NCBI GenBank assembly: GCA_016929065.1
Contig: JAFGJO010000024.1
Coordinates: 1 to 64,000 of the forward strand
DNA length: 64,000 nt
Direction of reading: 5' to 3'
DNA from: Spirochaetales bacterium
GTDB taxonomy: Bacteria > Spirochaetota > Spirochaetia > SZUA-6 > RPPD01
Below are positions 3,611-46,407 of this stretch, piece after piece (within the stretch, counting starts at the first letter, position 1; each line of letters opens with the position of its first letter). The notes beneath the pieces are model-generated. The model saw only the letters and a list, made by a program, of their open reading frames with translations. It did no database searches and was not told where the DNA came from. A program made the position numbers and the translations under genes.

Positions 3611-4771
3611 ATGGAAAAAAACAGAATAAGAAAAATAATTGCAAAAACATTGGGGATCATTCTTTTAATAACAGCAATCGGGATACTGCTGATGAATTCC
3701 CAATGTACTGCTGCAGCTGCACGTGAATTCTTTCACAACGAATACTTGTCATTTTATATAAACACAAAAGGATTAAGGGCGAAAGAGAGCGGCATAAATT
3801 ATTTTACCGAACAAAAGACAGTTTGCCGGGATGATCTTGAGATACTATTTATCGGATATGCCAGTCCGTCTTTACAAAATAAAAAGACAAGTGACCGGAG
3901 CGAGGAACTTGAAAATATATTGCTTGACATGATGCAGGATGAAGCGAACCTGTTTTGTTATGACCACGATACAGCAGCAGCTTTTTTGGAAGGAAAAATA
4001 GACGGCGAGAAATTAAAGCAGCTTTTATTCGTTGGCTATACTGATGAAGAAACAAAACAGATAAAACAATATCATCGGCAGCTTCATGAAACTGCTCAGC
4101 GTATAGAAAAAACAATCACGAAAGACCCTCTCGAGATTGATACTGATTTTTTAGAACAAAAAAGAATGAACTATAAAAATGGTCTGCTCCAGAAATCCGG
4201 TGTGCCGTACAGAATTATTCCCAATGAAGAATATCTCCTGCTGAAAAAAAGCGGCTATCCCCTCTGCGACCTTCTCCTTCGTGAAAAAAACGGGCACATT
4301 ATCAATATTCTCCCCAATTGCGCGCAGGGTGCAACGCAGATTCTCTTTCATACTGCTCAATACACGAAAGTGAGCCAGATCATTGAAGATAAACAGAAAC
4401 TGTTTATGAAACTGAAAGATGTAAATTCCATGCAGATCGGCGACTGCATTGCTGTATTATGGGATGCACAGGCAGGTGCAACAAGCAATTCAGGGCACAT
4501 CGGTGTCATCGTGGATCTTGTATATTCTTCAACGGGGAATGTACTGGATGGGAAAGTGATTGAATTTTTTCCCGCGAATCATGCGCCTCGTGTCGTAACA
4601 ATCAGTAATTCAATGTACGGCAACTGGAAATCCGCACTAAAACAAAGTGCCACAGATTCAGGTATTTTTCTGCTGCGAGCTGTGAAAAACAACAGGCAAA
4701 GAAAATACGATACGATTCTGCCATTTTTAAAGCAGAAATATCCAAACAAGAAAAGTTTTGTGGTATTTTAA
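3611..4771 (+). CDS. Exported or membrane-anchored protein of unknown function, possibly NlpC/P60- or CHAP-like
   Basis: 386 residues from the ATG at 3611, chosen because GGAG lies seven bases upstream; the ATG at 3596 has no such site. One hydrophobic segment (residues about 10-30) would export or anchor it, with no clean lipobox. The middle is hydrophilic and helical. Near residues 280-300 a segment reads MQIGDCIAVLWDAQ and then NSGHIGVIVDL. That GD-hydrophobic-stretch followed by GH-I/V-G-I/V-hydrophobic pattern resembles NlpC/P60 or CHAP cysteine hydrolases, but the order of Cys and His is not typical, so the assignment is tentative. A strong hairpin follows the stop. Confidence 0.5.
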   Translation: MEKNRIRKIIAKTLGIILLITAIGILLMNSQCTAAAAREFFHNEYLSFYINTKGLRAKESGINYFTEQKTVCRDDLEILFIGYASPSLQNKKTSDRSEELENILLDMMQDEANLFCYDHDTAAAFLEGKIDGEKLKQLLFVGYTDEETKQIKQYHRQLHETAQRIEKTITKDPLEIDTDFLEQKRMNYKNGLLQKSGVPYRIIPNEEYLLLKKSGYPLCDLLLREKNGHIINILPNCAQGATQILFHTAQYTKVSQIIEDKQKLFMKLKDVNSMQIGDCIAVLWDAQAGATSNSGHIGVIVDLVYSSTGNVLDGKVIEFFPANHAPRVVTISNSMYGNWKSALKQSATDSGIFLLRAVKNNRQRKYDTILPFLKQKYPNKKSFVVF

Positions 4772-4796: not shown

Positions 4797-4830
4797 GGGG
4801 CTGTCCTGGAAGTTTATCCAGGACAGCCCC
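4797..4830. terminator. Strong bidirectional hairpin after the 3611-4771 gene
   Basis: GGGGCTGTCCTGGA pairs perfectly with its inverse over 14 bp, loop AGTTTA. It lies 25 bases after the upstream stop codon. The tail TTCATAATTT is T-rich but not a clean T-run on the plus strand, while the left flank AAAAAC gives a T-run for minus-strand transcripts. Confidence 0.6.
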
Positions 4831-4847
4831 TTCATAATTTGATTGAA

Positions 4848-5162
4848 TATTTGATCAGCCTTTTATTGCCTCACTTTTTAATGTTGTAACCCACCTTTTC
4901 CGCATAATCTGAATTGTTTGAATCTCTGATTTGCTTTTATTTGTCCAAAGAAATATATCCTGCATTGTTCAGAAGTTTTACACTGGATATGAATATCTTT
5001 TCCATAGAAGGTTTGAGCTTTGTTTTTCTGAATGCATTGATTGTTCTGAAATCTGGCTGATTCTGCGGTCGGCGGGATCAATTCCATTTGTTTTTGGTTG
5101 TACAGTTTGAAAGTAAGTGTGTTGCTTTTTCCTTTTGCCATGTGAAATTCCAGCAGATTCAA
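4848..5162 (-). pseudogene. Internally deleted, frameshifted IS1182-family transposase relic
   Basis: The readable frame 4878-5162 joins two ends of an IS1182-type transposase. Its start TFKLYNQKQMELIPPTAES matches the family's N-terminal YNQxQxxLxPP motif. Its end FGQIKANQRFKQFRL matches the C-terminal FGxIKxNxxFxRFxLRG motif. The several-hundred-residue catalytic middle is missing. After the GQIKAN motif the frame is broken: the neighbouring frame continues EKVGYNIKK, as the family does. It cannot encode an active enzyme. Confidence 0.6.
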
Positions 5163-5196
5163 TGAGGTTTGTAAATTTACCCTGTTTAATGTTTTT

Positions 5197-5331
5197 CAGT
5201 AATTCCTTCAGGAAGGCATTGGAGGCGAAATATTTTTTTCGTCCTCCGGTGCGAGTCTGATGTACACATCAGTCCGAGCACCGGGGACAAAAAAAATTTC
5301 GCCCCCTTCATAGCTTTTAAAGGAATTACTG
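5197..5331. repeat. 135-bp long imperfect hairpin
   Basis: CAGTAATTCCTT at 5197-5208 is the exact inverse of AAGGAATTACTG at 5320-5331. The arms continue inward (GGCGAAAT / ATTTCGCC; CCGGTGC / GCACCGG) to a central CTGATGT-AC-ACATCAG palindrome at 5257-5272. The whole is symmetric about 5264. It looks like a MITE- or REP-type element rather than a terminator, since there is no T-run and it is far too long. Confidence 0.75.
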
Positions 5332-5342
5332 TATAATAAGAA

Positions 5343-5370
5343 GGGGCTGTCCAACTTATTGGACAGCCCC
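5343..5370. terminator. GGGGCTGTCC hairpin after the lipoprotein gene
   Basis: GGGGCTGTCC and GGACAGCCCC form a 10-bp stem with an 8-base loop, 22 bases past the stop of the minus-strand lipoprotein gene, followed on that strand by CTT. It may serve as its terminator and also matches the inverted end of the IS relic. Confidence 0.55.
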
Positions 5371-5392
5371 TGAAAAGTCAAATTGAAATTGC

Positions 5393-38043: not shown

Positions 38044-38150
38044 ATTTATAACCTGTTTGTATCTATGTACGATAAAATTGTATTTTTGTAAAGCCATGAA
38101 GGGAACTGTGATGTTTAAATAACAAGAGATCATTGTTTTCTGAAAAAAAA

Positions 38151-38595
38151 AGACAGGTCTGTAAGCCGGGTTCTGTGAACAATTACTGCAGAGCAGTAAT
38201 CGACCGGCACCATCTATCTTGTTCCAATACTTACGTATGGAATCTGTGCAGCCTACCCGCAGGTAAAAGACGAGCAGCCTCCTGCTGTTTGGCCTTGCTC
38301 CAGACGAGGTTTGTCATTCCGGATCAATTACTGGATCCGAGGCAGGCTCTTACCCCGCCATTTCACCTTTACCCGGCCACTAAATCGAAGATTTAGTGGC
38401 TTCCCACCAAAAATACAGGGTATTTTTGGTGGTCGGGCTGTATGTTTTCTGTGACACTTTCTGTACCGCTGTTTTTGAGAATATCAAAAACAGCGGCCCC
38501 GGTTATTACCCGGCATCATGCTCTGCGGAGCCCGGACTTTCCTCCTGAACACTCAATCAAAGATTTAGTGGTCAGGCGGTGCCGCGACCTGTCTT
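38151..38595 (-). ncRNA. rnpB: RNase P RNA
   Basis: Catalytic RNA that trims tRNA 5' leaders. The 5' GACAGGTC (38586-38593) pairs with the 3' GACCTGTC (P1). Conserved segments are GAGGAAAGTCCGGGCTCC near the 5' end and ACAGAACCCGGCTTACAGACC near the 3' end. At about 445 bases it is longer than most bacterial RNase P RNAs: AT-rich hairpins such as CCACTAAATC/GATTTAGTGG and CCACCAAAAATAC/GTATTTTTGGTGG extend peripheral stems. Nine T follow the 3' end. It starts eight bases after the stop of the zinc-ribbon gene and so is probably processed from that transcript. Confidence 0.93.
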
Positions 38596-46189: not shown

Positions 46190-46272
46190 ACCCCACTGAA
46201 GGGGTGGCAGATACTCAAAGCCTGAGAACATACCCATTGAACCTGATCTGGATAATGCCAGCGAAGGGATTT
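46190..46272 (+). promoter_or_regulatory. TPP riboswitch (THI box)
   Basis: The conserved aptamer segments are all present: GGGGTGGC, CCTGAGAA, the CCCATTGAACCTGATCTGG core and GATAATGCCAGCGAAGGGA. It senses thiamine diphosphate and represses the downstream thiamine genes. About 130 bases separate it from thiC. There is no T-run terminator, but TCTCCCCTT at 46316-46324 is nearly complementary to the thiC ribosome-binding site AAGGGAGAG (46392-46400), suggesting control of translation. Confidence 0.95.
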
Positions 46273-46407
46273 GTTCCGCATTGTATGAGCTCATGAAGAA
46301 TACCTGCAATTATTATCTCCCCTTTCGACGTTTACAGCTGGAATGTACCATAATCGGCCGCAGTCAACATGATTGCTCTGTGAGTTCCGGCAAGGGAGAG
46401 GATGATC

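Follow-up and report, generated by a model that had tools for sequence, protein, structure and literature searches.

A decayed IS1182-family element carrying a dispersed hairpin repeat, and unrelated hairpins at the same place in other IS1182 left ends

Between two convergent genes on contig C44 of a 3.49-Mb genome (69 contigs, 95.8% complete) lies a 575-bp unit, spanning positions 4797-5371 of the window, the 64,000-nt stretch of DNA analysed here. The stop codons of the flanking genes end at 4771 (+) and 5393 (-). As an earlier note on this DNA had proposed, both ends of the unit are palindromes of one sequence, GGGGCTGTCC..GGACAGCCCC (Table 1). The GGGGCTGTCC end sequence is common to full IS1182 copies, for example that of Bhargavaea (L097), identifying the ends as IS1182-type terminal inverted repeats. 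Target duplications, for which the note had suggested looking, are not visible in the flanks of the unit, and neither an empty site nor a full-length parent was found for this element.

Table 1. Features of the 575-bp unit, further window features and related copies in the same genome
Feature	Position (window) or contig and locus	Strand	Evidence or remark
Right (transposase-3'-side) end palindrome	4797..4830	.	14-bp perfect arms, 6-nt loop; 25 nt past stop of upstream + gene; terminator-like score on - strand
GYNIKK, out-of-frame remnant of the transposase C-terminus	4875..4895	-	Weak overlapping tblastn pieces
Transposase piece FGQIKANQRFKQFRLCG, about residues 481-497 of L091	4899..4949	-	Separate collinear tblastn piece, E 0.009-0.083
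Transposase piece QPDFRTINAFRK..., about residues 101-140, different frame	4943..5062	-	tblastn E 1e-9 to 2e-7, four IS1182 transposases
Transposase N-terminus MAKGKSN..FKLYNQKQMELIPP	5061..5141	-	tblastn E 0.001 (L091) to 0.57 (L055)
Remaining transposase leader, hairpin to start codon	5142..5196	-	Related stretch in L003, L010, L012, partly L004 (by eye)
Long imperfect hairpin, member of a dispersed family	5197..5331	.	Fold; model R1, 83.5 bits at 5220-5307
Left (transposase-5'-side, L-end) palindrome	5342..5371	.	13-bp perfect arms; 21 nt past stop of downstream - gene; terminator-like score on - strand
RNase P RNA	38146-38595	-	Expected housekeeping feature
TPP riboswitch	46190-46286	+	Expected housekeeping feature
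Other copies	C39 L002, C62 L003, C14 L004, C49 L005, C12 L006, C20 L008		
Other copies (continued)	C45 L009, C65 L010, C63 L012, C27 L014, C28 L015		

The minus strand of the unit retains scraps of an IS1182 transposase, which tblastn with intact IS1182 transposases resolves into three collinear pieces corresponding approximately to residues 3-25, 101-140 and 481-497 of the 519-residue relative L091 (mapping read off the alignments). The middle piece was also recovered, with E 2e-4, when the genome holding the unit was searched with the L055 protein. The start codon lies at 5141-5139, and the hairpin sits between it and the left-end palindrome. A 94-residue frame (4878-5162), which has no match in Pfam or NCBIfam, holds the first and third pieces, and the middle piece is in another frame. 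The relic therefore keeps three transposase pieces plus a GYNIKK tail, rather than the two of the note; compared by eye, the corresponding reading in L002 runs on as GYNIKKWAIKG. Because the transposase survives as three collinear pieces, the element must have undergone at least two large internal deletions. The collinear pieces, together with a fragment in copy L003, establish homology to the DDE transposases of the IS1182 family, and the unit is a dead, non-autonomous, internally deleted relic of this family.

BLAST revealed eleven further IS-derived loci in the genome (our grouping), giving twelve with the window unit. The note had suggested looking for further copies and for a full-length parent; no parent of this lineage was found, nor an intact gene for its transposase, of which there are fragments only in C44 and C62. 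The fragment in C62, the central part of the transposase in L003, matches the NCBIfam IS1182 model (NF033551) with 2.2e-9 and 36.7 bits, well under the whole-protein cut-off of 270. A search of the genome with the L055 transposase returned the C62 and C44 fragments, one intact gene on C39 (L047) and nothing else. Relatives of the fragment were found in none of 25 other genomes of the order, and occur in 14 other genomes of a 392-genome sample of the phylum. We also rejected a source in viruses, plasmids or phages, since the searches gave none for the window element. L047 (C39, 334-1701, -) encodes an intact 455-residue IS1182-family transposase of another subgroup (303 bits against the cut-off of 270; 26% identity to the query L055), the only intact one found; its ends are GAGCCTGTCGGACTCC, with TTAA on either side (flanks by eye), and are unlike those of the window element.

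The note had read the unit as a MITE, born by internal deletion and possibly mobilised in trans. An internally deleted IS1182-type element with relatives is indeed what we find, and the three copies that retain both ends (the window unit, L002 and L003), along with an IS1182 transposase of another subgroup encoded intact in the same genome, would be compatible with a short element amplified in trans. However, the retained intervals and internal junctions vary among the twelve copies (by eye), which do not share the common internal structure of a MITE family; nine lack one end, with the left end kept in all but L012; part of the hairpin is gone in eight (by eye); and the sole intact transposase belongs to an element with different ends. 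Since internal junctions differ between copies, the set looks like the outcome of repeated independent decay rather than an amplified MITE, which we consider improbable. In L008 (1711-1865) and L014 (1469-1484), a GA-rich dispersed or tandem repeat (AATTCAGGAAAAGAAG..) adjoins the IS-end remnants.

To describe where the ends lie, we measured the distance from each of 14 end palindromes, from eleven copies, to the nearest stop codon of an open reading frame that reads towards it and has 100 codons or more. Ten of the palindromes are 5-29 nt past such a stop (25, 21, 22, 5, 24, 26, 6, 20, 20 and 29 nt), the misses being both ends of L002 (320 nt and none), L009 (119 nt) and L015 (none). Within the window, a distance of 5-30 nt from such a stop applies to 3.0% of position-directions overall and to 7.8% of those in intergenic DNA; at the latter rate, the probability of at least 10 of 14 is 6e-9. 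Multi-copy IS1182 elements elsewhere often lie close behind stop codons too, although many of their ends do not, and palindromic ends are also found in other members of the family. Insertion of the IS1182 member IS1272 is reported to replace stem-loops without duplication (PMC5678879), terminator hairpins are described as targets of IS1272 and TnSha1 (PMC4923244), and a large survey names IS1182 among the families over-represented between convergent genes (PMC9208149). The window element resembles IS1272 and TnSha1 in its transposase homology, its stem-loop-forming ends, the lack of a visible duplication and its terminator-like location. It differs in being known from relics only, in that both of its ends are full terminator-like palindromes, in the additional 135-bp hairpin between left end and transposase, and in that the replaced target is not observable.

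By analogy, the window copy fits the published duplication-free, stem-loop-replacing insertion of the IS1272 type. The intrinsic terminator of a convergent gene pair was probably where its ancestor inserted, and the element's own terminator-like palindromic ends would now occupy the place of both genes' terminators. The end palindromes stand where host terminators belong, from which we infer that they terminate transcription and that the IS replaced a terminator. The terminator-like palindrome brought in by each end suggests why IS1182 insertions at gene ends are tolerated.

The hairpin itself was described in the note as symmetric to the base, which it is not. It is 46% self-complementary without gaps (the best of 1000 mononucleotide shuffles reaches 47%) and 75% with gaps, and is yet strong by folding: as DNA, 5190-5340 gives a z of -8.6, and none of 200 shuffles folds as well. 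A covariance model of the family, R1 (76 positions, 13 sequences), detects 18 strong hairpins in the genome (at least 54.9 bits), six within IS copies and twelve outside, besides weaker ones, and matches this genome only among 98 searched. A second type of apical loop, CGAACGNTTCATACNTGCNGTAGTGA, occurs at seven sites here (up to 3 mismatches) and at none in 393 other genomes; seven viral matches to the type-1 loop pattern contain no such hairpin (by eye). The hairpin, which also lies outside IS copies, is thus a separate repeat family and not a by-product of IS deletion. Most of its members fold well singly, with L197 (z -1.2) and L216 (z 0.0) as exceptions.

In the 18 forward rows of the alignment, 15 of 27 base pairs have changed on both sides. 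Taken by themselves, the twelve rows outside IS copies show 14 such pairs, a number equalled in none of 500 shuffles, and the six IS rows show three, which is unexceptional (80 of 500 shuffles); the hairpins in the IS could share a single origin, for which support is weak (35/0). As regards the covariation only, arm-to-arm correction by template switching in quasipalindromes could take the place of selection on structure, and homogenisation of this kind is documented for inverted repeats (PMC7202029, PMC8604942). We nevertheless find it doubtful that template switching explains the pattern: the apical loops are kept while the stems differ, and the spacer inversion that accompanies such switching would scramble loop orientation.

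Dispersed structured intergenic elements of similar length, about 130-155 bp, are known from other bacteria, among them bcr1 and ERIC-type repeats, to which the window hairpin is, to our knowledge, unrelated in sequence. Rfam 15 gives no gathering-level match at the window hairpin, and a permissive search yields only sub-threshold matches there. The family shares with REP sequences, the GTAG- and CGTC-tagged palindromes associated with RAYTs, an extragenic location, often at gene 3' ends, a palindromic nature and heterogeneous stems; reported REPs, however, are high-copy palindromes of 20-40 bp (PMC3733652), compared to about 20 copies of some 120-135 bp here, so that neither size nor copy number agrees. 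The genome has a single REP-associated tyrosine transposase-like Y1 gene (L186; C20, 1474-2001, +; 77.6 bits against a cut-off of 80), which has no hairpin beside it, and we rejected mobilisation of the hairpin by a REP/RAYT system.

A terminator-like site lies within 130 nt on the left-end side of 9 of the 16 hairpins outside IS copies, and on the other side of two; sites reading towards the hairpin number 8 and 2, respectively (sign test 0.03; background 4 of 150 intergenic points). This side bias in the element's own genome is modest. Several neighbouring palindromes are GGGCTGTCC-like (L190, L194 and L204).

A search with R1 of 99 IS1182 loci (L054-L152, out of 104 retrieved) gave no match. 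Nevertheless, when we folded 24 IS1182 leaders, several contained long hairpins, and a shared one, unrelated to the window family and likewise without an Rfam match, is built from the blocks CGCTTTCCGCGGGC, GAGCCTCCTCGG and TTTCCCGCAGGAGTC. In elements of Evansella, Halalkalibacterium, Planococcus, Cytobacillus and Peribacillus, this hairpin separates the left-end palindrome from the transposase. Five such Bacillaceae queries, taken from leaders, found 20 places in 79 IS1182 loci. The 400 nt upstream of the transposase (29 kb) hold 15 of them, the 400 nt downstream (29 kb) none and the rest of the loci (275 kb) five, two of these five being halves of leader hairpins split by insertion (L086, L106). 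Apart from a 59-bp match in L079, the upstream places (14 of 15) all lie on the + strand. These counts are inflated by self-matches and ascertainment, because the queries came from leaders, four of them in the searched loci. Unrelated hairpin repeats thus recur inside IS1182 left ends, in the same place as the window hairpin and oriented the same way, a pattern of which we found no description in the open-licence literature.

The distribution of the Bacillaceae hairpin was followed on a quick transposase tree with long branches, drawn from 90 loci with an N-terminal transposase, 89 of them with enough leader and 72 distinct. Thirteen of the 72 have the hairpin upstream, which requires at least six changes on the tree, all forced by well-supported branches. 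Of the labels, L147 matches over just 25 nt and was left out because its protein is a duplicate, L088 matches over 38 nt at the edge of its locus, and the hairpin of L095 may be external to a left end that has degraded; the six changes were counted with L088 and L095 in, and without these two Evansella, L102, L122/L128, L078 and L224/L225 remain (by eye). L102, from H. halodurans, has the hairpin, and L099 and L100 lack it at the same place. Related hairpins occur at 33 places in 17 plasmid records, all from Bacillus-like genera. We examined eleven sites (H1-H9, H18 and H19, of 20 hits). At two of them, on two Peribacillus plasmids, a palindrome is followed by the hairpin and, just downstream, by an annotated IS1182 transposase. 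The other nine sites have no IS1182 transposase annotated; at four of these, a terminator-like palindrome is near the hairpin only on the side away from the left end, and the side rule is therefore not general. In L226, L229 and L230 (Priestia and Niallia plasmids), similar palindromes, GAACCA..TGGTTC, lie 45-66 nt to the right of the hairpin and are possibly part of a larger repeat.

We lean, with little more than even confidence, towards an origin of the window arrangement in which a hairpin repeat from outside lodged in an IS1182 left end and then hitchhiked. The 135-bp hairpin, an independent dispersed repeat, would have settled in the IS ancestor, with the left-end palindrome on one side and the transposase gene on the other, and would then have been copied along with the IS; the same would have happened in other IS1182 lineages with the unrelated Bacillaceae family. 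The most likely route of this putative entry is that hairpin repeats settle beside terminator-like palindromes, of which the IS left end is one. A further possible route is that a surrogate outer end allowed the hairpin to be captured, as TnSha1 is reported to have done with its passenger gene (PMC4923244; cited in PMC12056078). Insertion preference, end capture or selection may each have caused the lodging.

Conversely, the solitary hairpins could derive from IS left ends that have decayed. The hairpin would then be an original functional part of the IS, acting in leader regulation or as the cruciform that a hairpin-preferring transposase would require, and the outside hairpins with their neighbouring terminators would be left-end remnants of several extinct IS lineages. 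This agrees with the order of hairpin and palindrome, which by inspection is constant among the IS copies with a surviving left end (11 of 12 loci) and prevails over the reverse order outside them, with the resemblance of several neighbouring palindromes to GGGCTGTCC, with covariation as expected from selection in active lineages, and with the repeated presence of hairpins in IS1182 leaders. Against it, the Bacillaceae hairpin is missing upstream of most distinct IS1182 transposases, and L102 differs from L099 and L100 by its clean presence or absence; moreover, inspection by eye picked out no remnant of a leader next to the outside hairpins, one of which follows a tRNA gene and another the tmRNA gene. 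We regard an original part as fairly unlikely, and lodging from outside as the better account.

Considering these recurrences, one can ask whether IS1182 elements and dispersed hairpins form a recurrent partnership, in which unrelated hairpin families from different phyla lodge repeatedly inside the left end of a hairpin-seeking IS, either because the hairpin targets terminator-like palindromes or because it serves the IS as a structured leader or cruciform substrate. We offer this general form only tentatively, and on present evidence would sooner doubt it than assume it. If true, the IS would spread hairpin repeats and shed solitary copies. Where long extragenic hairpin repeats come from and how they spread is an old question, since they carry no genes; if they ride in IS1182 left ends, a single testable cause could underlie their dispersal, their position next to terminators and the covariation in their stems. 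While the remnant itself is ordinary, the recurrent placement of hairpins in IS1182 elements is the point that is so far unexplained.

Two observations concern the hairpins as sites of rearrangement. On contig C47 (16316-16416; L217/L194), a type-1 hairpin of the window family lies directly against the type-2 loop motif, as might result from recombination between two hairpins. The IS1182 leader hairpin of Evansella halocellulosilytica is interrupted by about 1.75 kb of inserted DNA (L086, 638-2387; L106, 623-2372), as if the hairpin were itself a target.
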